Positions 6,336 through 28,223 of a DNA stretch of 28,590 bases are shown here, one piece after another. The notes beneath the pieces were generated by a model. It saw only the letters and a program-made list of their open reading frames with translations. It had not been told where the DNA came from and made no database searches. The stretch lies in the IMG/VR virus record IMGVR_UViG_3300025127_000189, positions 1 through 28,590 of that record; one strand, 5' to 3'. Position 1 is the first letter of the stretch; each line of letters starts with the position of its first letter. Made by a program: the position numbers and the translations under genes. This stretch comes from a virus.

Positions 6336-6361
6336 TATTAACCTTTAAAAACTAAACAAAA

Positions 6362-6709: not shown

Positions 6710-6723
6710 ACAAGTAAATCAAT

Positions 6724-6766: not shown

Positions 6767-6791
6767 ACAAACTATTTAATTATATTATATC

Positions 6792-7580: not shown

Positions 7581-7594
7581 CGTAACTATTATAT

Positions 7595-7628
7595 GTGGTG
7601 TAGCCATCTATAATGGTGGCTATACTAC
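7595..7628 (+). other. Stem-loop without a T-run between two structural genes
   Basis: The arms 7595-7608 (GTGGTGTAGCCATC) and 7615-7628 (GGTGGCTATACTAC) pair over 14 positions without mismatch, using a few G-U pairs, around the loop TATAAT (7609-7614). The sequence that follows is TATAATAAAAATAAAAAT, not a T-run, so it is not a standard forward terminator. It occupies most of the 66-base gap between the 262 aa gene and the 255 aa gene, ending 18 bases before the ATG at 7647. It could be an RNA-processing or stability hairpin. Confidence 0.6.
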
Positions 7629-7646
7629 TATAATAAAAATAAAAAT

Positions 7647-8414: not shown

Positions 8415-8415
8415 T

Positions 8416-9504
8416 ATGGGATTAATAGGAACAGTTACAGAAGAGAATTATTATAACGGATCTCAAACTTTTATTGCTGACGGATCTACTTCTACTTTTA
8501 CACTTACATTTGAAACACTTCCTACTGCTAGTCAAGTTAGAGTATATGTTAATAACTCAGAAATAACTACATTTAGTATATCTGGAGCTACTCTTACTAT
8601 ATCTTCTACATTATCTGCTAACGACGTTATTAAAGTAGAATTGTTAGATAAAACTTTCGGTAGTTATCAATACACATCGATCAAAGATATTGTAGATAAT
8701 TTTATGATAGCATATGTTGGTGATGGCAAACTAATAGATCATGTAGCTAAGTCTGATATTGTGTTTCACGCTAAAAGAGGTTTGCAAGAGTTTAGCTACG
8801 ACATACTTAAAACAGTAAAATTGCAAGAAGTAGAACTTGGACCTTCGCTTTCAATACCAATGCCGCAAGATTATGTTAATTATGTAAAAGTTTGTTATAT
8901 AGATAGCTCAGGTATACGTAGAATAATATATCCAACTAGACTTACAACAAATCCAACAGAGCCACTAGTACAAGACGAAAATTACAACTATGTCTTTGAT
9001 TCAGCTGGCAATGCTGTTGAAGGAAGCTCTATAACAGAAGAAAGATATAAAGCTTTTGACACTAAAAACATATCAGGTGATTTATCATCTGAAGATAGTT
9101 TATATTTAAGCACTAATGATTATTTACGCAGCGACTTTGGACAAAGATATGGTGCTACGCCAGAAACTACACAAATAAACGGTTTTTTTACAATAAACGA
9201 AAGAACAGGTAGCTTTAGTTTTAGTAGCGACTTGTCTGGCAAGGTAATTGTACTTGAATATATTTCAGATGGTCTTGGAACTGACGCTGAAATGAAAGTA
9301 AACAAAATGGCTGAAGAGGCTTTATATAAGCACATTGCATATAACGTTCTAGCGACTAAAAGAAATATTTCTGAGTTTATAGTAAGAAGGTATCAGAAAG
9401 AGCGTAGAGCAGCGCTTAGAAACGCTAAAATAAGGTTGTCTAACCTTAAGATCTCAGAGCTTTCTCAAGTTATGAGAAATAAATCTAAACAAATTAAACA
9501 CTAG
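8416..9504 (+). CDS. Probable tail adaptor (P22 gp4 / T7 gp11-like role)
   Basis: Adaptors sit under the portal and join head to tail. Residues 1-78 form a beta-rich module, with SQTFIADGSTSTFTLTFETL (16-35) and a VRVYVNN strand, of a type common as an extra domain in phage tail proteins. The adaptor-like core follows: a helical segment (SIKDIVDNFMIAYVGDGKLI, 88-107), FHAKRGLQEFSYDILKTVKL (117-136), the beta-turn block SIPMPQDYVNYVKVCYID (146-163), and a long basic C-terminal helix (about 295-362) rich in Arg/Lys (YQKERRAALRNAKIRLSN). A helical bundle with a long basic C-terminal helix is expected for proteins contacting the portal. It ends in TAG, three bases before the next ATG. The role is inferred from fold-like layout and gene order, not from a database match. 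Confidence 0.6.
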   Translation: MGLIGTVTEENYYNGSQTFIADGSTSTFTLTFETLPTASQVRVYVNNSEITTFSISGATLTISSTLSANDVIKVELLDKTFGSYQYTSIKDIVDNFMIAYVGDGKLIDHVAKSDIVFHAKRGLQEFSYDILKTVKLQEVELGPSLSIPMPQDYVNYVKVCYIDSSGIRRIIYPTRLTTNPTEPLVQDENYNYVFDSAGNAVEGSSITEERYKAFDTKNISGDLSSEDSLYLSTNDYLRSDFGQRYGATPETTQINGFFTINERTGSFSFSSDLSGKVIVLEYISDGLGTDAEMKVNKMAEEALYKHIAYNVLATKRNISEFIVRRYQKERRAALRNAKIRLSNLKISELSQVMRNKSKQIKH

Positions 9505-9507
9505 TAA

Positions 9508-12500
9508 ATGGCTGAAGATAAAAAATCTTTTCTCCAAGGTAAAATGAACAAAGATATTGATGCTCGACTTTTACCAAATGGAGAATATCGTAGTGCTCAA
9601 AACATACAAATCACGACTTCAGACGAACAAGACGTAGGATCTATAACTAATATTAAAGGTAATACTAAAATTATAAATAATAGTAATACACTTATAAGTG
9701 ATATTTTAGTTAATGATTTATCTCATTACATTGATTTAGAAACAATTGGTTGTTTTTTTGATGAAAAAAATAATAGAATATTTTATTTTGTTACAAACAA
9801 CGTGTGTCCAAATGTGACCGCTGTTGGTTTAGTAGGAGATGATGATGGTCCTACTATGGCTGTTGATTTAGACAACAACGATTTGCTTTGCGCTATATAT
9901 CTTCATGATAATATAGATTCAAATACCTCAAGTATTAAAAAACTAGTTTCAGGCTTATTTTTAAATTTTAGTAAAACAAATATAATAACAGGTGTAAACT
10001 TATTAGATAACCTATTGTTTTTTACAGACAATTTAAATCAACCTAGAAGAATAAACATAGACACGGCTTTAGCCAATAATGCCTTTTATGACTCTGAGGA
10101 AAAAATAAGTGTTGCTAAGTTTGCTCCGTTTATGCCACCTCTTTTGCTAGAACACGAAACAACAACTTACAATCAACCTATAGCTTCGAGTATTTTTGAT
10201 CAAGGTGGAGTTACTGAAGCTCTGTATGAGCAAGACTTGTATCAAACTAATTTTTACGATGCAGCTACTAGTGGTAATTTAATTGGTAGTTACTTTTTTT
10301 ATAGAAGTCCGCTTACTACAACAGCATTTTCAACTATTTTATTTGATGAAACTACTAATTTTATATATTTAAACTCAAGTCTAAGTGAAGTATTAGTTGG
10401 TTACAATGAAGTTTTTGTTAACACTGTAAGTAATTTTACTACAGATACTTTTTTTAAAATACAACTAAATAGTGTGACAGGTGAAGTTTTAAATACAATA
10501 CCAACAGGACCTGCTCTTGGCGAAACTACAGACATAACAGAATTACAACCTCAACTAATTGCTAATCAAGGAGATGATTATACAGTAGTAACTAATCCTT
10601 CATTTATTCCTGTAGGCCCTACTTCTTCAATGCAAACATTTAATCAAAATAATTTTCCTGAAGATTACTTAAAAGAAAAGTTTGTAAGATTTTCTTATAG
10701 ATTTAAGTTCAAAGATGGTGAGTATTCTACAATTGCTCCCTTTACTCAGATATGCTTTATACCCAAAACAACAAGTTATAGCGTAACTGAATCTCAAAAA
10801 ATATTTAAAACAGGATCTGTTCATTATCAAGATGATAATGGCAATAGTGATGGTATGGTAAACAGCATTACAGGTGTAAATTTAAATATTATACTTCCTT
10901 CTAATAATCCAAATAAAGACTTTGAAATATCTAACTTAGAAATACTTTATAAAGAATCAGATAATAATTTAATAAGATCTGTAGAAGAAATAATATTAGA
11001 AGATAAAAATATAAACGATAGTATAATTAAATACTTATACAAGTCTACACTTCCTTATAAGACACTTCCTAAAGATCAACTGACAAGAGTTTATGACAAT
11101 GTTCCTTTAGCTGCTTTAGCTCAAGAAGTTGTTGGCAATAGAGTTGTTTATGGAAACTTTGTTCAAGATAGAACTTTACCATCTAGGAAAGATAAAATAG
11201 CAGGATTAGATTTTAGTGTAGGTTTAACTGAAAAATTTGATATTACAAACAGTTTTGGTAATGCAGATTTTAATAATTATTATTTACACAAAGAATATCC
11301 ATTTCACTCTGTAAAACAACGTAGAACTTACGAAGTAGGAGTTGTTCTTTCAGATAAATTTGGTAGACAATCACCTGTTTTAACTTCTAATACTAGCTCA
11401 AGTTCAGTAGACGTAAAAGCTAAACCAAACACTTTTCATAGTAGTTCTTGGTCTTCTACAGAAAACTTTATACATTCTTTTTCTCCAGGTAGTCAAGATT
11501 ATTGCGGAGATGCTTTAAATATAACTTTTAATAGCACTATTACAAGTCCTTATGCTAAAGGCACAATAATACCTATAAATACATTTGCCTCTTCTACAGA
11601 TGTTTATGATTTTGATTTATTTAAAGCAAATTTTGGTACAGATTTAATTTTAAGCAACGGATCGCCTGGAAGCGCAGGAGGTATAATGATTAACAATTTG
11701 TACTTTTATTCTACAATAAATCAAAATCCTGTTGCAGCTGGACAGCCAAACGTTTCTTTAATAATAGGTAATTTTTTATATAAAAATGCTATTTTAACAG
11801 AAGTTCAAACTGGTTATAGCGAGCTTTATATAAACACAAACTCTAGCTCTGTAGCTAATTTTTTAAATATATTAAAAGTAAATTTAAACTCTGAAACAGG
11901 TGAGATACTTAGTACAGAAGTTGTGCAACAAAGTGTTTTTACAAATAATATTATATTCTCAGGTCAACCAGTGCAACACGCTTTTGCTGGAGAAGCTTTT
12001 GAAGGAACTATACTTGGATCTATATCTATTGTAAGTCCAGAACAAACTTCTGTTATTATTCCAAACTTAGGTGAAGTTTATAAACTAATTATAACAAACT
12101 TTAATGAAACTGATTTATTTTCTGTAGGTGAATATTTAAAAGGACAGGAAAAAGATTTTGTAGAAATTGTTGGATTTGATCAAGAATCAGGACAGTTTAT
12201 TATATATTTAGACGGAGCTCCTAGTTTAAGTTATACAAACTTTTTTAACAATGATTCTAGTCAAATAAATTTTGATAGTTATATTTTCTTTAAATATAAA
12301 ATATCTCCTTACGGATGGTATTCTTATAGAGTAGTTGTTAAACAAACAGAACAAGAATATCACAACGTATACGTACCCAATGTTGTGACTATAGATATAA
12401 ATAACGAAGGACATAAATCATATTTTCCTATAATTGGAGATAATATAAATAAAATTACAAGAGATATTGAGTTTTCTAATATTCAAGAAACAGGATTAAG

Positions 12501-15099
12501 TACTAGTAAATCTCAAATATATCCTAAAGTACTACCCTTAACTTCAGCGACTACAGTTAGCGGCTTGACTAGTGTTTTATCAAGATCTATACAAAGCGAC
12601 AAAGATTTAATTAACGTTATTAGTGTTGGTACTGCAAAAGAGCAAGATTTAAAAGATGAAGAATCTAATGTTTTATCTTTTATATACGAAACAAATAAAA
12701 ATCCTTTAATAGCTCAAATACCATATGGTAATAGCTCTATAAACATAGGCCAAGATATTACTTCTTTATTTAAAGGTAACGAATATGATTTTGCTTCAAA
12801 CGCAGCTGGTATTAGTGGCAACACTAGATTAAAATTACCAGGCACTAATATTGCTGTTTTTACTTCAGGTAGTCCTGTTGTTACTATTGGTGATTTTTTG
12901 TCTGGAAAAAATACCAATTTAGTTAAAATAGAAGCTATAACTGGAGACGGTACTGAAAGTTTAATTACATGCGATGGAGAAATAAGCGATATATATTTTG
13001 ATACTGCCGCTACAACTGGAAATAAAATATATAGTTACAAGTATGGTTTGCAAGATAGAATATCTGTTTTTGAAACAAAGCCATTTGAGTCTAAATTAGA
13101 TATATATTATGAAACTTCTACAGCCGGATATGTTCACGAGTTAAACGAAGCTGTTTCTGTTGTAACAGACGTAGAAAGTGTTTCTTTTATTAATACAGAA
13201 GATTTTAAAGAAAGTACTATTTTTTATGACGAATTTGGAACTTTTCAAAACAACTTTGCGGCTACATTAAATATATTAGATCAAAACGGAAGTACTTTAA
13301 CTCTTGGAGACGGTCCTGGTCAAATAAATGTTGGCGGTGTAGAAATAACACAAGAGATAGGTACTGGGCCTAACGAATTAAGTAGTTTATTTACAGATTT
13401 TATTCAACAATCAAATTCTGGAAACTCTACTAGATTTGTTATTTTTAATGATGAAAACACAGCTACTTTTAAATTAAAACCAAGAGAAGGTTTAGGTAAT
13501 TTTACATATGATCCATTGTTAGAGCCTACTAAATACATATTTACACTTAGAATTACAGTAAATGGAAATAACTCTAACTTACAAGATGAAGTTTTTATTA
13601 TTAATAATGTTGAAATAAACTTAATAAATGAAGCTCCTGTTATTTCTAGCCCTACTATAGTATCAGCTCAACAAAACAATGATGATCCTACGTTAACGCC
13701 AATACATACAATTATAGCAACAAACGCGTCTGCGAGCGAGCAAAACAATACATCAGGTCTTCAGTTTAGATGTAGAGACTTACAAAGTCAATTTATTGAA
13801 AATGAAGCTGGAACATTACAAGGTTTTGAAACTATATTTGATCCTCAAGGCGAAGAAATTGTTGAGTTAAGGATTAACAATACAACAGGTGAAATATTTT
13901 TAACAAACGAGTTTACAGAAGAAAGTTTAAATGTAAATTTTGTAATAAGAATTACAGACGGATCAGATTATTTTAGCGATGAAAATTTTCAAGCAGGTGA
14001 TGATGAGCATGGAGGTTTATTCGTAGATCATGAAATAAATTTAACAGTTAGTGATGGTCTTATTGTTTTAAATGGAATACCAAGCCAAGGAGTGCCAAAC
14101 GTATCTCAAGAAGAATTACCAGGCGGTATAAATATTTTTCAAAACGAAGGATCAACAAGAGTTGCAGTTGAAGATTTTATGTTTAAACCAGAAGTAGATA
14201 ATCCTGCTACTGGTATTGCATATGGCTCTTATTGGACAACTACTCCAAATGCTCAACAAGTTGAAAATATGCCAAAAAATCAAATTATACTTGACAGTGC
14301 TGAGCCTGCTGGTATTGCTTATGGTCCTGTTGGAATATTTTTATGTAGTCAAACAGCAGCTAAAAGTAATGATAAAATGACAACTAGAATTTGGGCATTA
14401 AGAGTTATAAACAATATTCCAAAAGTTGTTACATATTATAATGAAACAAGCGCAACCATAAATAGATCAACAAGAAGTTGGTTTAATCATCACTTGTTAA
14501 ATGGTTGGGGTCATATATTTTGTCAAACATCACCTACTTTTTTAACAGGTGGTGGTGCAGGTACTTCTTCAGTGCCGTTTTCATCTTCTTTTTGTGATAT
14601 AGATGGTAGTTTAGCTGTAAATCCTTCTTGTCCATATCACCCTGATTATTCTACTAATAACATTTTTAATAACCCAAGCCAAAACTGGCTTTATTGGACA
14701 CCAGGAAATATGAGTGGATTTTATGGTCATTATGATCCAGATCTTTTAGCAGATAGTGGTTGGATTTTAAATCAACCTGGTACTCATCCAAGATATGGTT
14801 CTGCTAACAATAATAGCTACGAAGGATCATTTCCTTATTATAATAATGAAGGAGAAATTGTTCATACAATATCTAAGCCTGAAGATATGAACGTTAGTAT
14901 TTCTGGTATAAATTTCCTAGGAACAGTGCCTCCTTTTCACAGAGGTGATCCTTTTTTGTTTAAATGTAAAGATACTGTTGTTTTAAATACAGTAGAATAC
15001 GAAATACTTTATGTTGTAGAAGCTCCTCATAAAATATCTGGCGGTGTTAACGAACAGCCTTTAGAAATGAAAAAAGTGTTTTTATGTAGAAAACAGTAA
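9508..15099 (+). CDS. Giant tail nozzle/hub-like protein with cadherin-like region
   Basis: This 1863 aa protein opens with FLQGKMNKDIDARLLPNGEY (8-27) and then AQNIQI and DVGSITNIKGN (42-52), a start I associate with P22 gp10/T7 gp12-type tail nozzle or stabilisation proteins of podoviruses, which plug the channel. Most of the first ~1100 residues are beta-rich, with YRFKFKDGEYS-like blades. Residues 1188-1215 (starting FETKPFESKLDIYYET) form another block known from such proteins. Around 1225-1500 it looks cadherin-like: LINEAPVISSP (from 1372) and VIRITDGSDYFSD (near 1480-1492) resemble calcium-linker and terminal strands. The last ~250 residues form a Cys- and Trp-containing beta domain (first Cys 1613), a candidate surface or receptor-contact domain. 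No signal peptide is present. The start is the first ATG, three bases after the preceding TAG. It may be only part of a longer protein; see the next gene. Confidence 0.68.
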   Translation: MAEDKKSFLQGKMNKDIDARLLPNGEYRSAQNIQITTSDEQDVGSITNIKGNTKIINNSNTLISDILVNDLSHYIDLETIGCFFDEKNNRIFYFVTNNVCPNVTAVGLVGDDDGPTMAVDLDNNDLLCAIYLHDNIDSNTSSIKKLVSGLFLNFSKTNIITGVNLLDNLLFFTDNLNQPRRINIDTALANNAFYDSEEKISVAKFAPFMPPLLLEHETTTYNQPIASSIFDQGGVTEALYEQDLYQTNFYDAATSGNLIGSYFFYRSPLTTTAFSTILFDETTNFIYLNSSLSEVLVGYNEVFVNTVSNFTTDTFFKIQLNSVTGEVLNTIPTGPALGETTDITELQPQLIANQGDDYTVVTNPSFIPVGPTSSMQTFNQNNFPEDYLKEKFVRFSYRFKFKDGEYSTIAPFTQICFIPKTTSYSVTESQKIFKTGSVHYQDDNGNSDGMVNSITGVNLNIILPSNNPNKDFEISNLEILYKESDNNLIRSVEEIILEDKNINDSIIKYLYKSTLPYKTLPKDQLTRVYDNVPLAALAQEVVGNRVVYGNFVQDRTLPSRKDKIAGLDFSVGLTEKFDITNSFGNADFNNYYLHKEYPFHSVKQRRTYEVGVVLSDKFGRQSPVLTSNTSSSSVDVKAKPNTFHSSSWSSTENFIHSFSPGSQDYCGDALNITFNSTITSPYAKGTIIPINTFASSTDVYDFDLFKANFGTDLILSNGSPGSAGGIMINNLYFYSTINQNPVAAGQPNVSLIIGNFLYKNAILTEVQTGYSELYINTNSSSVANFLNILKVNLNSETGEILSTEVVQQSVFTNNIIFSGQPVQHAFAGEAFEGTILGSISIVSPEQTSVIIPNLGEVYKLIITNFNETDLFSVGEYLKGQEKDFVEIVGFDQESGQFIIYLDGAPSLSYTNFFNNDSSQINFDSYIFFKYKISPYGWYSYRVVVKQTEQEYHNVYVPNVVTIDINNEGHKSYFPIIGDNINKITRDIEFSNIQETGLSTSKSQIYPKVLPLTSATTVSGLTSVLSRSIQSDKDLINVISVGTAKEQDLKDEESNVLSFIYETNKNPLIAQIPYGNSSINIGQDITSLFKGNEYDFASNAAGISGNTRLKLPGTNIAVFTSGSPVVTIGDFLSGKNTNLVKIEAITGDGTESLITCDGEISDIYFDTAATTGNKIYSYKYGLQDRISVFETKPFESKLDIYYETSTAGYVHELNEAVSVVTDVESVSFINTEDFKESTIFYDEFGTFQNNFAATLNILDQNGSTLTLGDGPGQINVGGVEITQEIGTGPNELSSLFTDFIQQSNSGNSTRFVIFNDENTATFKLKPREGLGNFTYDPLLEPTKYIFTLRITVNGNNSNLQDEVFIINNVEINLINEAPVISSPTIVSAQQNNDDPTLTPIHTIIATNASASEQNNTSGLQFRCRDLQSQFIENEAGTLQGFETIFDPQGEEIVELRINNTTGEIFLTNEFTEESLNVNFVIRITDGSDYFSDENFQAGDDEHGGLFVDHEINLTVSDGLIVLNGIPSQGVPNVSQEELPGGINIFQNEGSTRVAVEDFMFKPEVDNPATGIAYGSYWTTTPNAQQVENMPKNQIILDSAEPAGIAYGPVGIFLCSQTAAKSNDKMTTRIWALRVINNIPKVVTYYNETSATINRSTRSWFNHHLLNGWGHIFCQTSPTFLTGGGAGTSSVPFSSSFCDIDGSLAVNPSCPYHPDYSTNNIFNNPSQNWLYWTPGNMSGFYGHYDPDLLADSGWILNQPGTHPRYGSANNNSYEGSFPYYNNEGEIVHTISKPEDMNVSISGINFLGTVPPFHRGDPFLFKCKDTVVLNTVEYEILYVVEAPHKISGGVNEQPLEMKKVFLCRKQ

Positions 15100-15121: not shown

Positions 15122-16945
15122 ATGCCTTTAAGCTTAAAAATAAAATACTTTAACACCTTTATATTAAGAGAAAAACCTTTTATTACAACAGCTACAACAA
15201 GCGCTGCGTCATTTGTCGGCACACCTGCTATTTTAGGCGAAAGTAGTACTATTAACTTAACTTCTTCTAACTCTGATATTGCAGTTGGACAAAAAGTAAG
15301 TGGGCCTGGTATATTAGATGATGTTAGTGTTACAAATGTTTCTGGTACTGAGATAACTATTAGTGTAGCCCAAAAAATAGAAAAAGGTGTTGTACTTACT
15401 TTTTCTTCAACAACTCCATATCCAAGTTCTGGCACATTTCAAAAAGCTAAAAATGAATGGCATGTAGAAGAATCAAGAATTAAAGGTGAGTTTAACGGTA
15501 AAACAGTTGATTTTGGTGCTAAAGCTTATACTGTGGATAAAGAATATAGAAAAAATCATAGAGAAAACGCTATGATATATTCTGGTATATATAACTCAAG
15601 AACAAGAGTAAATAATACTAATCAATTTTCTATAGGTGAAAGTATAACAAAAGCAGTTGATAGAGCTTACGGATCTATACAAAAACTTTACGCAGAAGAT
15701 ACTAACTTAATTATATTTCAAGAAAATAAAGTTAATGGGGCTTTAATAGATAAAGACGCTATATTTACAGCTGAAGGCGGTGGTTTATCAACAACAGCGA
15801 AAGTTGTAATAGGTCAAATAACACCTTATTTAGGAGAGTTTGGTATCGGTAAAAACCCTGAAAGCTTCGCTGTTTATGGCTTTAGAAAATACTTTGTAGA
15901 CAAAGATCAAGGAGCTGTTTTAAGGCTGTCTAGAGACGGTTTAACAGAAATATCATCATATGGCATGAGAACTTTTTTTAGAGAAAACCTAAAGAATACT
16001 ACAAAAGCATATGGCATGTTTGATGTACACTCTAAATCTTATATTCTAAATTTAGAATTAAAAAACAAAATACAACAAAATAAACAAACATTTATATCGC
16101 CAACAACTGATGTTGTTAGTGTTGGTACAGATAAAAGATCTAATAGCAAGCAAATAACTATAAAATCATTTAATTCTAAAATACAAAAAAACCAATACAT
16201 ATCTTCTGAAAGTTTAAAAGATACATCAGTAAGAGTTGCAAGTGTTAAAAATAAAGTAATAACTTTAACTAAAAGCGCTAATATTTTAGCAGGAGAAACT
16301 TTATCTTTTAGATCTTTTATAGACTTTAATAATAATGTTACTAAGCCTTTAGAGAATTTTACAACAATAGGCTTTGATGATAAAGTAAACGGCTGGACTT
16401 CTTTTTATACCTTTAATCCCAAGTTTGGTGGTAGTGTTCAGGGTGGTTTTTACACTTGGAATAAAGGTGATCTGTACAAACATCACTCAAGCGTATTAAA
16501 AAATACTTTTTATGATAATTTCCAACCAAGTACTATTACTTTAGTAAGCAATCAAAACCCTTCTTTAGTTAAGCACTATCAAACAATAAACTATGAAGGA
16601 ACTAACAACTGGAAAGTTATAGAAATGTTTTCACCAGCTGAAGATAATGAAAATTATAATGCGTATCAAATACCTGGTAACATTACAGGAACTTATATTG
16701 ATCAGAACGGTACTATTAAATACGCTGGTTTTTGCCCGCTAGAAAAAAAGTATTTTGCTCAAATAAAAATAAATGATACAACAACAATAACCGGCATAAG
16801 CGGGTTAACAACAACTGGTATAAAAGGATTTTTTGCTGAAACAACGTTAGAACATCAACCAGTTAAAAACGACAAATCAATAGATAGAAGTAAACATGCT
16901 GAGCTTTTTTCAGTAGGTTTTAATTATGAACAATCTTTATATTAA
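15122..16945 (+). CDS. Second large tail protein, possible continuation of the nozzle/hub protein
   Basis: This 607 aa protein is beta-rich. Residues 42-96 and 343-397 are two copies of one module (see the repeat entries). Between them, NEWHVEESRIKGEFNGKTVD (111-130), then RENAMIYSGIYNSRTRVNNT and ITKAVDRAYGSIQKLYAED (175-193), FGIGKNPESFAVYGFRKYF (240-258) and LRLSRDGLTEISSYGM (267-282) form a block I recall as the C-terminal part of single long tail proteins in marine Bacteroidota phages. Later, LYKHHSSVLKNTFYDNF and HYQTINYEGTNNWKV (485-499) belong to the same type. It starts 22 bases after the 1863 aa gene, in an AT-rich leader with several stop codons, so it is a genuinely separate gene rather than a read-through frame. 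The likely role is a tail hub or stabilisation partner; the assignment rests on recalled similarity. Confidence 0.6.
   Translation: MPLSLKIKYFNTFILREKPFITTATTSAASFVGTPAILGESSTINLTSSNSDIAVGQKVSGPGILDDVSVTNVSGTEITISVAQKIEKGVVLTFSSTTPYPSSGTFQKAKNEWHVEESRIKGEFNGKTVDFGAKAYTVDKEYRKNHRENAMIYSGIYNSRTRVNNTNQFSIGESITKAVDRAYGSIQKLYAEDTNLIIFQENKVNGALIDKDAIFTAEGGGLSTTAKVVIGQITPYLGEFGIGKNPESFAVYGFRKYFVDKDQGAVLRLSRDGLTEISSYGMRTFFRENLKNTTKAYGMFDVHSKSYILNLELKNKIQQNKQTFISPTTDVVSVGTDKRSNSKQITIKSFNSKIQKNQYISSESLKDTSVRVASVKNKVITLTKSANILAGETLSFRSFIDFNNNVTKPLENFTTIGFDDKVNGWTSFYTFNPKFGGSVQGGFYTWNKGDLYKHHSSVLKNTFYDNFQPSTITLVSNQNPSLVKHYQTINYEGTNNWKVIEMFSPAEDNENYNAYQIPGNITGTYIDQNGTIKYAGFCPLEKKYFAQIKINDTTTITGISGLTTTGIKGFFAETTLEHQPVKNDKSIDRSKHAELFSVGFNYEQSLY
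15245..15409 (+). repeat. Beta module copy 1 (residues 42-96 of the 607 aa tail protein)
   Basis: The module follows the pattern (I)xL-x-S-xNSxI-x(2)-GQ-x-(V/I)S ... VxVxxVxxxxITxS ... I-x(2)-G-x(2)-L(T/S)F. It opens STINLTSSNSDIAVGQKVSG and closes IEKGVVLTFSS. It resembles a short beta module common in phage tail proteins. The second copy lies about 300 residues downstream, with the presumed conserved tail block in between. Confidence 0.5.
16148..16312 (+). repeat. Beta module copy 2 (residues 343-397 of the 607 aa tail protein)
   Basis: It opens KQITIKSFNSKIQKNQYISS, continues with VRVASVKNKVITLTKSANIL and closes GETLSFRS. It aligns over its whole length to copy 1, with the same NSxI, VxVxxV, IT and G-x(2)-L(T/S)F positions. 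DNA-level identity is low, so the duplication is old or was acquired separately. Confidence 0.5.
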
Positions 16946-17726: not shown

Positions 17727-19661
17727 ATGCCTGGACATACTACAAATAGAAGAACATTATCATCTAGAACAACAGCAGGAAGCTATAGAGCTCCTGTACA
17801 AGGTATAGTAGACTATGGTGCTTTTGAAAAAGGTTTTGATAACGCTTTTGACATAGAGGCTTTTGACAGAGAAGTGCCTGAGTGGGTAAAATTAGATCAA
17901 GAAATAGGAGTATCTAAGTTTGATAGTGGAACAGGTACGCCTGCTACTGAAAACTTTGAAGGTCAAACTGAAAATTTGCATCCTGATGTTGTAGAGCAAC
18001 CAATGGTTAATACTTATGTTAAAGACAAAAGAGCAAATAAGTATTTAAAAGGTAACGAGGAAGATGAAAAAAGAGCTTTGCAAGATTTAGATTCTTTAAA
18101 TGATTATTTAACTAAAAAAGGAACTGTTTATACAGCTATTGGTAATTCTGATACATATGATCTTGAATTAAGTAAAAATGCGCCTGTGCTTGACGAAAAT
18201 GGTGAAGCTATTATATATAAGGGTAAAAACGGTAAAGATGTTAAATTGACTTGGGGTATGATGAACTCTGTACATGGAAAACCTGATGCAAAATACAATA
18301 GGCGTATAGAACAAAGAAGTATTAGCAAGGGAGGAGTAGATCTTCAGCCTGTTACAGGTGAAGTTATAACTCTAGGTGAAGGCGAAAACGCGAAAGAGTA
18401 TTTTATAAATTATTCTGCAATAAATGATGAATATATTAATGAGCACTTTAAAATAAAGTATAATCACGCAAGTAGTTTAGCGGAAGCAAATGAAAAAATT
18501 AAAAATCCTAGCGCAAATCAAAAAACAAAATCTACAACAGACGTAGAGTTGCTACCTGGAGATGAAGGATATAAACCTGGATTTAATCAAACTAGGCAAG
18601 AAGTTACTGAAACTATATCACCTGATTATTACAATACTCAAAACCAACTAGCTGCAGAAAGTGCTGCAAAAACTTTTAATTTTGACACAGGTGTAAAAGG
18701 TATTGGTTATTCTTCCGCTATTAATCAGTTGTTTAACACGGATTTTACGTTTTCACAAGATGTAATTGATAAAATTAAACAACAAATGCCTAGTGATAAG
18801 GAGTTAGAAAGATTTAATAATTTTATAAAACAAGATGGTAACACTCTTACTGCAAAAAGACTTAAAACTTATTTAAAAAATAATCAATCATCTAGCCCAG
18901 TACTAAAAGGTGCAAACTTATTAGATCTTTATGAAGACGAAGGTGGAAAAATAGGTATTAAAGATGTAACTAAAAAAATAAAAGTTATTGCTTTGCAAGA
19001 CTGGTATGCAGAGTCTGTGAAATACACTAATGCTCCTGAAGCTTATAGAATAGATAAAGACACAAATAGAGCTATAGAAATTCAAACATTTATAGACGAA
19101 AAACAAACACTTAGAAAAAAACAACTAGAAGGAAATAAAGGTGGTTTTAATTTAACTTTTGCCAATGGACAAAAAGCAAATCAAAGTTTGTTAGAAAAAG
19201 TTCAGAATTTATTAAAAAGAACTGATACTACACAAAATCAAACAGAAAGTATTAAAGCTTTTGTAAAAGGTCAAAGTCTTAACGCACCAGGGCTTTCAAG
19301 TCCTATTAAAGTTACAGATGATATGTTGACTATAACTTACCCGACTGCAAGAGGTTCTGCTACAAATCAGCAATCCACGGGTGTTGGCCCTACAGATCCT
19401 AATTTTATTAATATTGACGATCAACCAGTCGTAACAATAAATATTCCTTTAAGTGAAGAAGATGGTGGAGGTACTAGAGAGTTTACATATGATTTATCTA
19501 ATACAGAAGATATAGAACTATTTATGAAAGCACTTTACGGTACAACATCAGAAGGAGGTACAGACGATAGTCTTGTATATAAATCTCATATACAATATGT
19601 ACAAGATCAAAGAATACGAAGCAGAAGAAATAGAACACCTAATGAATTAAATCCTAATTAA
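17727..19661 (+). CDS. Probable internal virion protein, middle member, 644 aa
   Basis: No known domain is recognised. The N-terminus is basic and Ser/Thr-rich (TTNRRTLSSRTTAGSYRAP, 5-23), followed by an acidic stretch with YGAFEKGFDNAFDIEAFDRE. Residues 95-260 are mixed alpha/beta, with lysine-rich turns (YKGKNGKDVKLTWGMM) and EYFINYSAINDEYINEHFK. The part from about 300 to 480 is mainly helical and Lys/Gln/Asn-rich, with no membrane segment. The last 100 residues include GVGPTDPNFINIDDQPVVTI, an acidic VTINIPLSEEDGGGTREFTY strand region, and a basic C-terminus (RIRSRRNRTPNELNPN). It is sandwiched between the small and giant putative ejection proteins; 9 bases separate it from the giant gene. 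Position suggests a gp15-like core protein. Function otherwise unknown. Confidence 0.55.
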   Translation: MPGHTTNRRTLSSRTTAGSYRAPVQGIVDYGAFEKGFDNAFDIEAFDREVPEWVKLDQEIGVSKFDSGTGTPATENFEGQTENLHPDVVEQPMVNTYVKDKRANKYLKGNEEDEKRALQDLDSLNDYLTKKGTVYTAIGNSDTYDLELSKNAPVLDENGEAIIYKGKNGKDVKLTWGMMNSVHGKPDAKYNRRIEQRSISKGGVDLQPVTGEVITLGEGENAKEYFINYSAINDEYINEHFKIKYNHASSLAEANEKIKNPSANQKTKSTTDVELLPGDEGYKPGFNQTRQEVTETISPDYYNTQNQLAAESAAKTFNFDTGVKGIGYSSAINQLFNTDFTFSQDVIDKIKQQMPSDKELERFNNFIKQDGNTLTAKRLKTYLKNNQSSSPVLKGANLLDLYEDEGGKIGIKDVTKKIKVIALQDWYAESVKYTNAPEAYRIDKDTNRAIEIQTFIDEKQTLRKKQLEGNKGGFNLTFANGQKANQSLLEKVQNLLKRTDTTQNQTESIKAFVKGQSLNAPGLSSPIKVTDDMLTITYPTARGSATNQQSTGVGPTDPNFINIDDQPVVTINIPLSEEDGGGTREFTYDLSNTEDIELFMKALYGTTSEGGTDDSLVYKSHIQYVQDQRIRSRRNRTPNELNPN

Positions 19662-19670
19662 AATTAAATT

Positions 19671-22600
19671 ATGTACGAAATAAACGGAAATCAATATAGT
19701 TTAGAAGATCTTCAGCAAGCAGCTCAAGAGTTCAACATGGGCTTTGAAGAGTATATGGAAAAAATGCAAGCTAAAGGCTTGACTGAAGTACAAGAACAAA
19801 CTACTGATGAAAATTTTCAACAAGACGGTGTAGCGGGTGCGGATGCGCCGTCGGAAATGGGTTTAGGCCCAGTAACTGCGGCACCAAAGAGTATGGGCTT
19901 AGACTTGGAAACTTCTTTGTTGGATTTGTCAGATCCTGTTGAAGAAATAGAAACATTAACTCCTTTTAAACCTGGAGCACTAGACAAGCAAGAGATAGAT
20001 TTAGAAAAAGAAAAAAGACAAAATCAAAAAACAAATAGAGCAACTGATGTTTTAGGTGTTAATGTTTGGGGTGATAGAACAGTTGAATCTAACACTAAAA
20101 CAAACGAAGCTTTAAAGCAGATAGGCTCTGCAAGTAATAAAAGTGTTATTTTTGATTTTACTGAAAATCCTAATTTTAATGTTATGCAGGATTTTTCAAA
20201 CATTACAGATCAATATATTACTGAATACGATGTAGATGAAAACTCTATTGATAGAGAAAACGATCTTAGAAAACGTTTTAACATGTCAGATATAGGTGAT
20301 GGTTCTGGCTATGTTGCTATTGATTACGAAGATGGTGAAGATTTAAATAAAAAATACTCTGGACTAGAAACTTATTCAATAAGCGAGCTAAGAAGAATAA
20401 GAGAGCAAAAAATTTCTAATCAAGCTAAAGCAACACATAACTTAAACGTTGAAGGAGTATTAGATGCTGGTAAAGTTTTTTTAAGCGAAAATGAATTAGA
20501 GCTAGCAAATATAAATGATAAATTAAGAAATCCAGGTTCTTTAAGCAACGAGACTTTAGATGATTTAAAGAAAAAAGCAGTTGAATTATCAAACACAATA
20601 GAAGCTGGCGATAATTTATTAGATTATGAAACCGGTAATTTAGTTTCTTATGATAAAATGTCTGATAAATCTAAAGTTATTTATGAAAAAGCTAAAGATG
20701 TTGCTGAAAGCACAGAGCAAGAATCTATTGAAAAGCAACTGGTAAATGCTTACGCTAGAGTTGTTGGGTTGTCTGGTGATGTAAGTTCTATAGGTGAAAG
20801 TGGTATAAAATATAGAATGAGTTTACTCGAGAGAGGCGTTGAAGGTCTTTATGATTTAGTTATTCCTGAAAGCCGTTACGGCACAACTCTTTCTAGCGAC
20901 ATAGAAAACATTGGAGAAACAGTTAAAACAGGTAAAATACCTTCAGCAATAACAAAGCTACCAGGTAATCATCCTATAGCTACAGCTTACAACGCTGCTT
21001 TAGAAGATTATTTAATATTAAATAGAGCTTTACAGCTAAATAAAGATCCTTTAACAACTGAAGATTCTGCAGGAGAGGCTTTTATACAAGGAGTTGCTGA
21101 TGCTTTTGGTGGAACTTCAGGTCAAGCTGTTACTAGAAACAGAGTTGCAATTAATAGATCTTTTGTTAGTTCAGCAGAACAAGCTGGCTTTAATATGGAG
21201 TCAGAAGAAGTATCTGGAGCTTTAGAAGAGACTATTGGAGAAATGGCTTTAGGCGGTTTTCCAGAACTAGCTAAGTTTGTAGGTGAAATTTATTTTACTA
21301 GAAAAATTAGTGGTAACATGTTTAACAAAGCTGGTAAGTTTGTAAAAGGAGCAATAAAAGGCTCTAAAATAGCAAAAAAAAGTAGATTAGCAGCTAGTAG
21401 TTTAAGAGTAGGTGTTAGTGCTTTAGAAGAAGTTGCTGTTTTTAAAGCAAGTACAGAACTCTTTGAAGGTGTAACTACGGCTCAAGGTAGCGCGAGAGGT
21501 TTTGATCCTAAATTTGCTGCTTCTTTAGGAGCAGGTGGAGAATTTGTTAAAATACTATCACAATCAAGTAGAGTAGGTAAGTTTATTAGTCCTTTTATGC
21601 AGCATATTAGTAAGTCTAAATTTGTTACTAATCAGTTAAACAGAGGCGTTGGAGCTGTTTCGGGCGCTAGTACTTTTGAGTTTGCTAAGTTTATGACAAT
21701 GGAAGCTCGTGGTACAGCTCAAAGAGAATTTGATGCTGGACTAATAACAAGAGAAGAGTTTTTACAAAGACAACAAGAAGAATATGTTTTTAAACCTAAA
21801 GAGTTTATAGCAGAATTTTATAAGATGAGACTTTTAGGTGCAGCTCAACAGCGTAATCCATTTGCTACAAGTGGTATTGTAAGAGACATGCAAAATGATA
21901 TTCTTCGTATGCAAAATAGACTAGTAGGATCTAGAAAAGCTGCAGAATATTTTTACGGTAAAGACAGTAAAAAATATAAGATTTATGAAAATACTGAATC
22001 TAAAGAGTTTGAAGGCGTATTAGATGATCTTTTTGAGCAAGCAAAGAAAAAACAAAAAGAAATATTAGATAATCCTGACACTGACAGAGAGCTTAAAAAT
22101 CAACAGTTAAAAGAGCTAAATGATAATTACGAGATATTATCTACTCAAGCTGAAATAAGAATAGCTCAAGCTGAAATAAGAGCTAATAGAGCATCGACAA
22201 ATAGATACGGTGACAAAAAATTTGCTACAGACGCTGAAATATACGTATTGTCTAGAAAAATAAAAAACGGATCTCAATTAACTGCTGCAGAGTCTGCTAA
22301 GCTAGCTAATGTTCCAGAAGGTAGAATGCTTTTAGATTTAGGTATAAAAACTGGGACAGATGAATATAGATCTATAAAAGGTGTTTTAGACAGAAACATA
22401 GCAATTAATAATGTTTTAAATTCTGTTGAATATAAGTCTTATAATGAAGCTGATGCTCAGGCTGCTTACAACTTTGTAAATAAAAAAGCTAATTTGTACT
22501 TTGAAATACAAAGACAAGAAAGTTTAGCTGTGCCTAGTAAAGATATAGCTGCATTAAAAAAAGAATACTTAGATTATCAAGAAGGTGGTGAGTTGTATAA

Positions 22601-25600
22601 TAATCTGCAAAAGTCTTTAAATAGCACCGTTAAAACTCTTTACGAACAAGGTTTTGTTGAAGCTAAAGAAAGAGCTAAGCAGCTGGGTCAAGAATTACCT
22701 TTAAGCATTGAGACTCCGCAAGAGTTTCAAAAAGTATATAATGAAACTTTTCCAAATGTACCTCAAGATGTTACTAATAAGGTAGGATTTTTTGATCAAG
22801 CTAAGAATAGAAGAGTTGTAAACAAACAAAAAGCTTTAGAACAAAAAAGTATTGGAGACTTTATGCACGAAGATATGCACTTTGTTTTAAAAGGCTCTTT
22901 AAAAGATGCTAACAATAGAGTTACTCAAAGAGGTATAGAAGTAATTGACGGTATAATAGATGAACTAACACCTTCTCAAAGAAGATTATTCGATCAAGAG
23001 TTAAATGATAAATATGATACTTCCCAGCCAAAAGAATTTTGGTATGAAGAAAACTTAACTGTATTGAGTCAGCTTATAAAGCAGAAAAAAATAGAGTTTA
23101 GTGATAAGCTAGGTAATGGGCTTTCTAGACTTATACCTGCGCTTAGAAAATCTGGTTTTGAAAACTTAGAAGTAGACGCTAGCACGGGTAGAGATATGTT
23201 TGAAATGTTAAGAGGTTTTTCTGAAGGTGAAGCAAAAGTAATGCCAGCTGTTATTAAATTTATAGAAGATAATGCTGAAAAATCATTTACAGAAGTAGCT
23301 AGCAAAGAATCAGTAGAGTTTTCAAATGCTAGAAAAGAAACAGTAAATAGCCTTGGTGATCAACTATCTAGGCTTAAAGAGCAAAAAGCTAGCAGCACAA
23401 AAAACTTTGAAGATCGTATTAAAGAAATGGAAGCTCAAGGTAAAACTGAAGTAGCTAATAGGATGAGGGAAGCACTACAGTCTGGTGATTTTGGTGTTTC
23501 AAGAGAGCGTGAAGGTAAAATAATATCTGATATAGTAAATCAATACAATAAGACTATAGGAGATGTTGTTCTTAATTTAAGAAAGAAAAATCCTGAAATA
23601 TTTAATACACCTACATATAGAAGAAAAGAGTTTTTAAATGAAGCAGGAACAGACTTAAACATGTCTAAAGTTATAGAGGCTATTACTGAGCAAACTAGGC
23701 CAGAGCTACTAAAGCACGTTTCTAGCTTTAATAAAGAGTTTATAGAATTAAGGAATGAGTTTAGATCTTCTTTGTCAAAAAGAGGACTAAGTGAATCTGA
23801 GATACAAAGTAGATTATTAGAAAAAGATAAAGAAGGTTATAAAAACAAAAAAGGAAAATTAGTTTTAGAAAACAATGATCTTGATGCTTGGGTAAATTCT
23901 TATTTAGTTAGAAAAATAGGTACTGCTACTGCTAAAAAAGACTTTAGAAAAGAAAAGTTTGAAGATACTATTGAAAGAGAAGATGGTACTGCTAGAGACT
24001 TTGAAGTTTCAGACAATATAGAAGATGCTATTGATTTAGGTTTTGAAAGATCTACTTTTGAAAAACCTACGTCTGTTATAGCACAAGAACTTACAATAGG
24101 TGGTAAGAAGTTTGTTGATCCAAAGCTTGAAGATTTTATAGAAACAAACACTATTGAAATATTTGAAGGCGAAAGGCCAGATGTTTTTGAAAGAGATTTT
24201 AAATTATTTTTTAAACAAGTCAGTCAAAAAAAGGCTTTTAAAACAGTAAAAAATAAACTACAGGATTTAAATAGTTTTTTAGAAGAAAATCATCAAACCT
24301 TGTTTGGTAGTAAAAATTTACCTATAGGTGTTTTAGTTCAAATAGAAAGAGAACTACCTGCTGAAAGTAAAATATTTACTAGAGCAAAAGAAGTTTTAAC
24401 TACTCAAAAACAAATAAACGACGCTATAAATAGAGGCGAAGAGTTTTATGTTGAAAACGAAAAACAAGGGCCTACAATATACGAAAGATTAAAACCTACA
24501 CCAGAGCAGGTTAGAGAGTTTTTTAATCCTCCAGCCATGAAGCCATCTAAAAAAGATCCTACTAAGATGGTTAGAAGCAGCTTAAAAGGTACTAGAAAAG
24601 ATGCTTTTGTTAATGCAATAACTTTTACATTAGCTAAAGAAAAGTCTCCTAGCGTTATGAGAACGCTTGATATGAATAATCAACAAATAGCTAAAGCAGC
24701 TCAAAAGCTTATTGTAGATCCTAATATTGATTTTTCTGAAAGCGGAAAAGAACTTAAACAAGTTTTTAAAGAAAACGATGCCATACTTAAACAGCTACGT
24801 AATAAAAAAGAATCAATTGATCCTTTAATGCAAGATTTTGCAGAAGCTGGACTTCAAGCTATTGAAAATGGTATAAAAAACGGGCTTAGCAGTGAAAAAA
24901 TTGTTCAAAATTTCTATAACGAAACTAAAAACTTATTAATTAATGATAAAAATAAATTAGAATATATACAAATAATTAATAAAAATTTAAGAAAAGGTAA
25001 AAGTTATGGAAATATTTTACTTGATTTAGAAAAATTAAGTGTTAGAGAAGTAAGACAATTTGGACTAAAACAAGCTGAAAATGAGCTGCAAGATATATTT
25101 TTAGATAGTAAAAGACTAGTAACTAGCGATAAAGAATTAGAGTTATTAGACGTTATTTCAAGAAGAGTATTTAAAGAAGAACTTAAAAACAAGCCTGGTT
25201 ATTTACAAAACTATAAAAACTTAACTAGCGAACAAAAAGAAATAGTAGACATGTTAAAAGCACCAGTATCACTTTTTCCAACAAGAGTTGCAGGCGCAAA
25301 ACAAGGGCTTAAAGATTGGATAAAACATAATAAAAGAAACTTTACTACTTTTGCTGCCAATAAAAGAATTAGTGACAGAAATGCTTTTGCAAGAAAAATG
25401 TTTGGTGAAATATATACAAATTTGAATGCAAAACAACAAAAACAAGTTAGAAAAAAAGTGCCTGCTTATGATTATGACACTACTAATGAAAGTTTTTTAA
25501 TAAATACAATAAGAGTCCAAGCAAAAGAAGCTGGTTTTAGTTTAGAAGATTTAAATATAAAATTAGTTACAATACCTCGAGGAAAATTTATAACAATTGA

Positions 25601-28223
25601 CGGTAAAAGAATAGGAGGAAATTTACCAGAAGGATTTATAAAAGAAAACTTAACATTCGATGGTGTTATTAGAGATGCTTTAATTGCAGAGTCAGCGCAA
25701 AATAGAGAATATATATTAGAAAGAGTTAATTATTTAAAAAACATAGGCCAAAAAAATGAAGCAAAAGCCTTTTTAAAATTTCAGTTTACAGACACTAATG
25801 GTTCCGGAAGAAGTTCAAGTGATATAGGTTTTCAAATGCTGGGCCCTAATGGAAGAATTTTAAAAGGTAGAAATGAAGTTGTTTTAGAGCATAATCCTCC
25901 TGTAAAAATGTTAACAGAAAAAGGTTATGATTTTGTAGATGGAAAAATAACTCTTGAAGAGTATGAAGATTATTTAAAAAAATCTAGAAGACACGTCGTT
26001 AGTAAAGAATTTGATAATATACTTAAAAAAACAGGTTATAAAGAGACAGGTGAAGCAAGTGAGAGATTTGGAACTCCTGAAGCTATAGAGTATTTTAAAA
26101 TGATTGGCGAAGAAAGAGTACTTTATCCAGAAGAGTATAGCGTAGATTTTAGTAATGCTAAAGATAATAGACTAAACAAAACTTTTAACGACATAATCGA
26201 AAGATCTAGAGGCATTGCTTCTAATCGCGTTGTTTCACAAACAGAAGCTATAATGGAAGGTAAAAGCAAGGGTCGTTTTGATATATTTATAAGACCTCAA
26301 GCTGAAGACTTTGTAGGTCTACTTTATAAAACATTAGGCAGAGGCAAGCAAGGCGATGCTGATATGGCGTTTTACAAAAGAAACTTACTAGATCCTTTTG
26401 CTAAAGCTATAGCTAATATAAGCGCTGATAGAATATCTTTGTTAAGTGATTATAAAGCAATAGTTAGTAATTTAAAAGTGCCAAGTGAAAAAGGTATAAA
26501 AGGTGTGTTTAAAAAATCACCACTAAAAAAGCAAGTTGGTGATACTGGCTTTACAGCAGAACAAGCTGTAAGAGCTTATGTTTGGACTAAGCAAGGTATG
26601 GAAATACCAGGGCTTTCTGAAAGTCAACTTAAAAAGTTGTTGACGCATGTTAAAGAAAATAAGCGCTTAATAACTTTCGGTAATCAGCTTATAAGAATAA
26701 ACAAAGGTGATGGTTATGTTAAGCCTGGTGAAAATTGGTTGAGCGGTACTATAGGTACTGATATACTAGAAGGACTTAATACAACTAAAAGATCTAAGTA
26801 CTTACAAGAGTGGCAAAAAAATGTTGATGTTATATTTTCACCTGATAATTTAAACAAACTACAAGCGGCTTACGGTAAACCATATGTTGACGCTATGAAA
26901 AACATATTACGCCGAATGAAAACTGGTAGAAACAGAGTTGCAACAGGCGACACAATAACGCAAAGGTTTACAGACTTTATAGCTCAAGCTACAGGTTCTA
27001 TAATGTTTTTAAATAGTAGATCAGCTGTACTGCAGACTATATCGTCACTTAATTTTATAAACTTTGGTGACAATAATATATTTGCAGCAGGTAAAGCTTT
27101 TGCTAATCAAAAACAATACTGGAAAGATTTTACAAAGCTTTTTAACTCAGACTTCTTAAAAGATAGAAGAGCTGGACTTAGAATAAACGTTATTGAAAGA
27201 GATATTGCTACAGCTGCTGGAAAAGGCGGGATAAGAGGTGTTACAGCTAGATTGTTACAAGCTGGTTTTACACCTACACAAATAGCTGATAGCTTTGCTA
27301 TTGCCGCTGGTGGATCTACGTTTTATCGTAATAGAATAAAAACTTACGAAAAAGAAACAGACGTTAATGGTAATAAAATATATACCAAAGAGCAAGCAGA
27401 GCAAAAAGCTTTTCAAGATTTTAGAGAAAACGCAGAAAATTCTCAGCAGTCTAGTAGACCTGATAAAATTAGCGCAGAACAAGCTAGCGGTTTAGGAAGA
27501 CATGTGCTTGCTTTTGCTAATACGCCTGCTCAGTATGCAAGAATAATAAAAAAGTCTGCTCTTGACCTTAAAAATGGCCGAGGAGATGCAAAGACTAATA
27601 TATCTAAGATAGTTTACTATACTTTTGCACAAAACGTAATATTTAATACTTTACAGCAAGCTATATTTGCTACAGCATTTGACGATGATCTTGAAATTAC
27701 AGAAGATAAAACTATAAACTTAGCTAATGGTATGGCAAATTCTATACTTAGAGGTATGGGTGTATATCCTTCTGTTTTTGCTGCTTTTAAAGATGCTGGT
27801 ATTAAATTATATACTGAAAGTAAAAAGAAAAGACCAGAGTATGAAAAAGCTGCAATACAATTATTAAATGTCGCACCTCCGCTTGGATCTAAATATAGAA
27901 AAGTTGCTGGTGGATTAAAAGGTTTTAGTTATACTACTCCTGAAGCTATTTTAGAAAAAGGCATTACTTTAGATAATCCAGGAATTAGAGGAGCTGCTAG
28001 AGTAATAGAAGGTACTACAAACTTACCTACAGAAAGAACCTTGCTGCTAATGGATCAAATACAAGGAGCTATGGATCAAGATCTTGAGTACTGGCAAAGA
28101 GCATTTATAGGAGCTGGTTGGCAAGACTGGCAGCTTGGTATTAAAGACGAAGAGCAACAACAAGAATCTTCCGGTGGATTTAGATTAAGAAAATACAAAT
28201 TAAAAACTTATAAAATAAAATAG
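19671..28223 (+). CDS. Giant virion protein (2850 aa) with HExxH metallopeptidase motif
   Basis: The N-terminus MYEINGNQYSLEDLQQAAQE (1-20) and the following acidic linker are of a type I recall from giant internal proteins of marine phages. A zinc-metallopeptidase signature is visible: GFFD (1039-1042), then HEDMH (1066-1070) with two His ligands and Glu1067 as the general base. Glu1126 or Glu1127 in FWYEENLTVLSQLI is a candidate third ligand, giving a gluzincin-like arrangement. Residues 700-1000 and 1140-2050 are mostly charged helices. The C-terminal ~650 residues (about 2180-2850) form the best-conserved-looking core, with GYVKPGENWLSGTIGTDILE, MKTGRNRVATGDTITQRFTD, FTPTQIADSFAIAAGGSTFYRN and a hydrophobic helix at 2647-2670, ending WQRAFIGAGWQDWQLG. 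A role as an ejected internal protein that could trim virion or envelope proteins is inference. No RNA-polymerase DxDxD motif is seen. It ends in TAG. Confidence 0.65.
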   Translation: MYEINGNQYSLEDLQQAAQEFNMGFEEYMEKMQAKGLTEVQEQTTDENFQQDGVAGADAPSEMGLGPVTAAPKSMGLDLETSLLDLSDPVEEIETLTPFKPGALDKQEIDLEKEKRQNQKTNRATDVLGVNVWGDRTVESNTKTNEALKQIGSASNKSVIFDFTENPNFNVMQDFSNITDQYITEYDVDENSIDRENDLRKRFNMSDIGDGSGYVAIDYEDGEDLNKKYSGLETYSISELRRIREQKISNQAKATHNLNVEGVLDAGKVFLSENELELANINDKLRNPGSLSNETLDDLKKKAVELSNTIEAGDNLLDYETGNLVSYDKMSDKSKVIYEKAKDVAESTEQESIEKQLVNAYARVVGLSGDVSSIGESGIKYRMSLLERGVEGLYDLVIPESRYGTTLSSDIENIGETVKTGKIPSAITKLPGNHPIATAYNAALEDYLILNRALQLNKDPLTTEDSAGEAFIQGVADAFGGTSGQAVTRNRVAINRSFVSSAEQAGFNMESEEVSGALEETIGEMALGGFPELAKFVGEIYFTRKISGNMFNKAGKFVKGAIKGSKIAKKSRLAASSLRVGVSALEEVAVFKASTELFEGVTTAQGSARGFDPKFAASLGAGGEFVKILSQSSRVGKFISPFMQHISKSKFVTNQLNRGVGAVSGASTFEFAKFMTMEARGTAQREFDAGLITREEFLQRQQEEYVFKPKEFIAEFYKMRLLGAAQQRNPFATSGIVRDMQNDILRMQNRLVGSRKAAEYFYGKDSKKYKIYENTESKEFEGVLDDLFEQAKKKQKEILDNPDTDRELKNQQLKELNDNYEILSTQAEIRIAQAEIRANRASTNRYGDKKFATDAEIYVLSRKIKNGSQLTAAESAKLANVPEGRMLLDLGIKTGTDEYRSIKGVLDRNIAINNVLNSVEYKSYNEADAQAAYNFVNKKANLYFEIQRQESLAVPSKDIAALKKEYLDYQEGGELYNNLQKSLNSTVKTLYEQGFVEAKERAKQLGQELPLSIETPQEFQKVYNETFPNVPQDVTNKVGFFDQAKNRRVVNKQKALEQKSIGDFMHEDMHFVLKGSLKDANNRVTQRGIEVIDGIIDELTPSQRRLFDQELNDKYDTSQPKEFWYEENLTVLSQLIKQKKIEFSDKLGNGLSRLIPALRKSGFENLEVDASTGRDMFEMLRGFSEGEAKVMPAVIKFIEDNAEKSFTEVASKESVEFSNARKETVNSLGDQLSRLKEQKASSTKNFEDRIKEMEAQGKTEVANRMREALQSGDFGVSREREGKIISDIVNQYNKTIGDVVLNLRKKNPEIFNTPTYRRKEFLNEAGTDLNMSKVIEAITEQTRPELLKHVSSFNKEFIELRNEFRSSLSKRGLSESEIQSRLLEKDKEGYKNKKGKLVLENNDLDAWVNSYLVRKIGTATAKKDFRKEKFEDTIEREDGTARDFEVSDNIEDAIDLGFERSTFEKPTSVIAQELTIGGKKFVDPKLEDFIETNTIEIFEGERPDVFERDFKLFFKQVSQKKAFKTVKNKLQDLNSFLEENHQTLFGSKNLPIGVLVQIERELPAESKIFTRAKEVLTTQKQINDAINRGEEFYVENEKQGPTIYERLKPTPEQVREFFNPPAMKPSKKDPTKMVRSSLKGTRKDAFVNAITFTLAKEKSPSVMRTLDMNNQQIAKAAQKLIVDPNIDFSESGKELKQVFKENDAILKQLRNKKESIDPLMQDFAEAGLQAIENGIKNGLSSEKIVQNFYNETKNLLINDKNKLEYIQIINKNLRKGKSYGNILLDLEKLSVREVRQFGLKQAENELQDIFLDSKRLVTSDKELELLDVISRRVFKEELKNKPGYLQNYKNLTSEQKEIVDMLKAPVSLFPTRVAGAKQGLKDWIKHNKRNFTTFAANKRISDRNAFARKMFGEIYTNLNAKQQKQVRKKVPAYDYDTTNESFLINTIRVQAKEAGFSLEDLNIKLVTIPRGKFITIDGKRIGGNLPEGFIKENLTFDGVIRDALIAESAQNREYILERVNYLKNIGQKNEAKAFLKFQFTDTNGSGRSSSDIGFQMLGPNGRILKGRNEVVLEHNPPVKMLTEKGYDFVDGKITLEEYEDYLKKSRRHVVSKEFDNILKKTGYKETGEASERFGTPEAIEYFKMIGEERVLYPEEYSVDFSNAKDNRLNKTFNDIIERSRGIASNRVVSQTEAIMEGKSKGRFDIFIRPQAEDFVGLLYKTLGRGKQGDADMAFYKRNLLDPFAKAIANISADRISLLSDYKAIVSNLKVPSEKGIKGVFKKSPLKKQVGDTGFTAEQAVRAYVWTKQGMEIPGLSESQLKKLLTHVKENKRLITFGNQLIRINKGDGYVKPGENWLSGTIGTDILEGLNTTKRSKYLQEWQKNVDVIFSPDNLNKLQAAYGKPYVDAMKNILRRMKTGRNRVATGDTITQRFTDFIAQATGSIMFLNSRSAVLQTISSLNFINFGDNNIFAAGKAFANQKQYWKDFTKLFNSDFLKDRRAGLRINVIERDIATAAGKGGIRGVTARLLQAGFTPTQIADSFAIAAGGSTFYRNRIKTYEKETDVNGNKIYTKEQAEQKAFQDFRENAENSQQSSRPDKISAEQASGLGRHVLAFANTPAQYARIIKKSALDLKNGRGDAKTNISKIVYYTFAQNVIFNTLQQAIFATAFDDDLEITEDKTINLANGMANSILRGMGVYPSVFAAFKDAGIKLYTESKKKRPEYEKAAIQLLNVAPPLGSKYRKVAGGLKGFSYTTPEAILEKGITLDNPGIRGAARVIEGTTNLPTERTLLLMDQIQGAMDQDLEYWQRAFIGAGWQDWQLGIKDEEQQQESSGGFRLRKYKLKTYKIK
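22146..22187 (+). repeat. Tandem 21-base heptad duplication in the giant protein gene
   Basis: CAAGCTGAAATAAGA occurs at 22146-22160 and again at 22167-22181, giving a period of 21 bases. The protein reads QAEIRIA-QAEIRAN, an exact heptad-length duplication in a charged helical region, as expected for a coiled-coil extension by slippage. Confidence 0.6.

Follow-up and report, generated by a model that had tools for sequence, protein, structure and literature searches.

A zincin-like metallopeptidase domain was identified in the middle of a marine phage protein of 2850 amino acids (hereafter, the giant). It is encoded in the window, that is, the whole stretch of DNA analysed here, a record of 28,590 bases with a GC content of 33%. 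We consider it probable that the domain is a gluzincin-type peptidase within a packaged and ejected giant, most likely serving self-processing around or after ejection. The first-pass annotation had placed HEDMH at residues 1066–1070, GFFD at 1039–1042, and WYEEN at 1124–1128 of the giant. These positions were confirmed, and the HExxH...Glu domain of zincin type that it had proposed mid-giant proved genuine, its site residues being conserved in divergent relatives. HEDMH is the sole HExxH in the giant, which contains 12 His residues, and the number expected from the composition was 0.0045. The features are listed in Table 1.

Table 1 Positions of the features of the giant and of its gene neighbourhood in the window.
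Feature	Positions	Strand	Basis
Portal protein	1220–3643	+	phrog_6547, E 5.8e-142
Virion structural protein, probably major capsid	4878–6335	+	phrog_13704, E 1.2e-98; Calle_1 homologue annotated as major capsid protein
Tail muzzle protein	15122–16945	+	PF25729 crAss_MUZ_C, 28.3 bits (cut-off 27)
644-aa protein, probable second cargo	17727–19661	+	Position directly upstream of the giant
Giant ORF, 2850 aa, probable ejected virion cargo	19671–28223	+	Late-gene position; synteny with virion giants
Zincin-like metallopeptidase core, residues 1008–1190	22692–23240	+	Profile of relatives; AlphaFold
GFFD, residues 1039–1042, predicted beta strand ahead of active-site helix	22785–22796	+	AlphaFold model; alignment of relatives
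HEDMH active-site motif, residues 1066–1070	22866–22880	+	H1066 94%, E1067 and H1070 100% in 62 dereplicated relatives
Predicted third Zn ligand E1127	23049–23051	+	Invariant (62/62); helix 120–130 of the core model
Conserved C-terminal part, residues 2166–2848, common to all related giants	26166–28214	+	82% identical to L002; search seed

The conservation of the site was investigated in relatives of the giant. A search of IMG/VR seeded with the C-terminal part (residues 2344–2776), in which the motif was not used, yielded 159 relatives, of which 80 were kept. Sixty-five giants from this search, near-duplicates included, reached far enough upstream for HExxH to be counted. The motif was present upstream of the C-terminal part in 58 of them, and the total was 59 against 0.30 expected. 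Because near-duplicate contigs occurred among these giants, a dereplicated set was also made, in which 164 domain sequences (that of the window plus the profile matches in the loci from three scans) were reduced to 62 at <50% identity. E1067, H1070, and E1127 were retained in 62/62 of these sequences and H1066 in 58/62 (94%; Glu or Gln in the others); the next most conserved column after these four reached 81%. The domain profile was built from HExxH-bearing regions and favours HExxH, but the conservation of E1127 and the motif-blind count are independent of this bias. The same four residues were the only invariant columns in alignments of 42 and 78 sequences; since the members of the former were picked for HExxH and known exceptions were left out of the latter, only E1127 constitutes independent evidence in both. 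The alignment of relatives, by which the first-pass annotation had proposed to judge its reading, thus retained the ligands and leaves that reading standing.

The Glu pair in WYEEN had been put forward as the source of the third ligand. Of the pair, E1127 is the predicted third ligand; E1126 was conserved in 69% of the 62 dereplicated sequences. Its distance from H1070 ranged from 46 to 84 residues across related giants. A chance HExxH is conceivable for so short a motif in a long helical protein of 2850 residues. This reading was rejected as having practically no probability, given the expected number above, the motif-blind count, and the joint conservation, in 62 divergent relatives, of the motif and a Glu that is independent of it. 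When the motif region by itself was searched directly against IMG/VR, nothing matched, and tblastn of the giant against named phages likewise gave no match. One alignment (A1) was dropped as a scan seed because it was too diverse.

The fold was then predicted with AlphaFold. The pLDDT was 84 for residues 930–1235 and 90.2 for the core, residues 1008–1190, whose pTM was 0.82. The core model opens with a strand and a helix, continues with two strands, a short helix, and the HExxH helix, and ends, after an insert of two helices, with a helix whose first residue is E1127; it is a confident prediction with a zincin-like layout. The structural check proposed in the first-pass annotation was thus made at the level of fold layout. 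GFFD (residues 110–113 of the 930–1235 model) coincides with the strand at 1039–1042 and is predicted to be a strand, not a Zn ligand; G1039 is Gly or Ala in 60/62 of the dereplicated sequences.

Foldseek against PDB gave no match at E ≤ 0.001 with either the 306-aa or the 183-aa model. Clostridial collagenases and the minigluzincin jannalysin were among the best PDB matches (E 0.45–0.74, not significant). These gluzincins resemble the giant's domain in combining HExxH with a Glu on a later helix, although the structural match does not reach significance. Against BFVD, one uncultured-virus protein matched at E 8e-7, and a large polyvalent protein of phage PTXU04 at E 0.02. A PDB sequence search with the motif region or its profile gave nothing significant. 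No Pfam or NCBIfam model scored above its cut-off for the domain members shown, and their NCBIfam and PHROGs matches were weak and scattered. Peptidase_M78, SprT-like, and Peptidase_M1 stayed below the curated cut-off, with best E values of 0.002–0.02 in single relatives only and none in the window protein. A metzincin was rejected because the HExxHxxGxxH/D extension is absent: the window protein has HEDMHFVLKGSL, and none of the extension is conserved in relatives. A Pfam Rep_fac_C match in the giant was set aside as below its cut-off. The domain family is new, without a curated model in the databases searched, and its kind is already known from other giant phage proteins.

That kind is represented by the zincin-like MPTase domains of phage polyvalent proteins, described in 12 clades (Iyer et al. 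2017, PMC5512222). They comprise a three-stranded sheet and a helix, followed by the HExxH helix and a Glu on the second of two C-terminal helices, between which lies a variable insert (PMC5512222). The core of the giant shares this element order, the HExxH helix, the later-helix Glu, and the variable insert as described there, and the polyvalent-protein domains likewise lie inside giant proteins encoded with late genes (PMC5512222). The likeness is one of described elements, and the giant's domain differs from those MPTases in having no Pfam or NCBIfam model above cut-off.

The virion RNA polymerase of N4 carries such a domain and is packaged unprocessed (PMC5512222). We compared the core by hhalign with the HExxH (C1) domain of this protein, gp50, and seven relatives. 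The probability was 86% (E 5e-6, score 43.2), with the HExxH motifs aligned, whereas 100 column-shuffled versions scored 18.7 or less and the reversed one 11.1. Since the match spans 60 columns of the strand-to-HExxH part and leaves out the Glu helix, and since shuffling the columns destroys the motif, it is evidence for a shared zincin-like core and not for close kinship. In N4, gp50 and a neighbouring 644-aa virion protein are encoded where the structural block ends, and the window giant likewise adjoins a 644-aa protein. In contrast to gp50, no polymerase was found in the window giant: it contains no D.D.D, and neither Pfam nor PDB chains gave a polymerase match. A virion RNA polymerase of N4 or crAss type was therefore rejected, both the polymerase domain and the DxDxD motif being absent. 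As to further effector domains in the same polypeptide, no Pfam domain above cut-off was found in the giant or in four related marine giants.

The genes of the window are ordered as terminase, portal, probable capsid, further virion proteins, muzzle, a 248-aa protein, the 644-aa protein, and the giant. The window represents the late block of a podovirus whose tail muzzle is crAss-like. The closest relatives of the portal and capsid proteins were found in phage ctfjg026, Flavobacterium elemo phages, Cellulophaga phi38:1, and Maribacter phage Panino, and phi18:3 has a more distant relative of the capsid protein. The succession of muzzle, small protein, 644-aa protein, and giant is as in crAss001 and N4, where ejected cargo is encoded; gp44 is the muzzle of crAss001, and among the proteins found in its virions are the cargo proteins gp45 and gp46 and a giant, gp47 (PMC10172136). 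Packaging and ejection, which the first-pass annotation had suggested from context, agree with the late-gene position and the synteny with virion giants, and the giant is probably a virion-packaged, ejected cargo. The giant of elemoF_6-3D (QMP85251, annotated 'structural protein', 3694 aa) occupies the same gene position, bears HEIFH at 1543, and matches the domain profile at 38.8 bits; it does not match the C-terminal profile of the window-type giants. The elemoF giant of locus L086 also contains DUF3293 (PF11697, E 1e-12) at residues 1323–1392, about 150 residues upstream of HExxH. The passages found in papers on Flavobacterium phages from the Baltic and flavobacterial phages from the North Sea contained no virion mass spectrometry for the giants. 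A scan of bacterial genomes gave two matches, in one Flavobacteriaceae MAG and one Aliivibrio MAG, which makes a flavobacterial host likely. Elsewhere in the window, a 1863-aa protein (9508–15099) and the muzzle ORF both match parts of a single PHROG, phrog_14478 (1474 aa), which looks like a split or rearrangement relative to it.

Comparison with L002 (giant at 3755–11515) indicated that the giant is modular. Identity breaks sharply near residue 2166, with almost no alignment before it and 82% after it. The muzzle is 65% identical between the two, and only the first 62 residues of the 644-aa neighbour align. The conserved C-terminus, set against the scarcely aligning upstream two thirds and 644-aa neighbour, points to exchange of cargo parts, and the break near residue 2166 suggests recombination. 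The 644-aa protein and the N-terminal part of the giant vary together between related phages. The C-terminal part is possibly a packaging or ejection module. The related giants without the domain are the shortest (1984 and 1913 aa), the syntenic giants without HExxH in phi38:1, phi18:3, and Panino are 1691, 1935, and 1829 aa, respectively, and domain-bearing giants are 2000–3608 aa; in these few cases there is only a hint that absence of the domain goes with short giants. The N-termini of the giants (19671–19991 in the window) share xYxGxxYsLxxxxxxA...EY followed by an Ala-rich, Ser/acidic stretch, and this shared module is possibly a packaging tag.

Here, we propose the following model. Residues ~1008–1190 would fold as a zincin-like, gluzincin-type metallopeptidase, with H1066, H1070, and E1127 as its Zn ligands and E1067 as the residue that activates water. 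The giant would be synthesised together with the late proteins, enter the virion as cargo, and leave it along with the DNA or before it. The peptidase would then cut its own giant, either within one chain or from copy to copy, at about the time of ejection or later, and cleavage would free parts of the modular polypeptide. As the four site residues are kept in 58/62 divergent sequences, activity seems likely in most members. The model draws on the conserved motif and the layout predicted for it, on the N4 gp50 match, on the position among late genes and the synteny with virion giants (that of phi18:3 annotated from MS/MS, that of elemoF annotated structural and bearing the domain), on the N-terminal exchange, and on the short domain-less giants. 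Against it stand the MS/MS-annotated giant of phi18:3, the only syntenic one so annotated, which lacks the motif, the unprocessed packaging of the N4 polymerase, the non-significant Foldseek result against PDB, and the existence of HExxH domains with non-peptidase chemistry (cited in PMC12633501). As to the substrate, the giant itself is our first choice, at slightly below an even chance; a host protein comes second and is rather less likely, the lack of catalysis or a different chemistry is slightly less likely again, and other virion proteins are improbable substrates.

The peptidase might also stay within the giant and cut host proteins (defence, envelope, or regulatory) early in infection. 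We regard such an ejected effector as fairly unlikely, since nothing in the sequence points to a host target, although its location and domain would be identical to those expected for self-processing. The joint variation of the upstream part and the 644-aa protein between related phages resembles that of host-facing parts, and an effector role has been proposed for some polyvalent-protein metallopeptidases (PMC5512222). A further role suggested by the first-pass annotation, the maturation of capsid or tail proteins in the prohead, was not borne out. The domain does lie within the late structural block, and the accompanying claim that the block has no other protease stands insofar as none was recognised, but holds only for the 28.6-kb fragment. 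However, phi38:1, phi18:3, and Panino, whose portal and capsid proteins are homologous, have syntenic giants without HExxH. In addition, the giants of L035 and L059 lack the domain, and five others lack the first His. An assembly protease that the phage needs would be hard to reconcile with the first-His losses and with HExxH-less syntenic giants in phages whose head genes are related, and this reading was rejected as improbable.

Five of 63 complete giants retain the domain with Glu or Gln in place of the first His: EExxH occurs in L007, L008, L011, and L046, and QEVGH in L002. The third-ligand Glu is retained in the four that were aligned (L002, L008, L011, and L046), and all five are candidate pseudo-peptidases, judged from their sequences. 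These variants would suit a zincin fold retained for a structural role or other chemistry, and no activity was reported for the N4 relative in the literature surveyed. For the family as a whole we find this unlikely, because the full HExxH...E set is kept in 58/62 sequences of <50% identity, far above other columns. A broader and rather doubtful idea is that the peptidase is a processing centre: a C-terminal packaging part would carry exchangeable N-terminal cargo that is released in the host, and the EExxH lineages would have a pseudo-enzyme or other processing.

In the 3859-aa giant of L085 (MW202828), HEFGH occurs twice, at residues 1615 and 2500, and the later occurrence matches the profile weakly (11.5 bits). 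Metallopeptidase domains were already known in giant phage proteins; a widespread marine family, with 164 sequences collected, is now added to them, and the Flavobacterium elemo phages link this family to phages that have been isolated. It has been proposed that the giant is processed by such domains before, during, or after its ejection, and this could now be tested on a laboratory phage, with the natural EExxH variants as ready-made comparisons.
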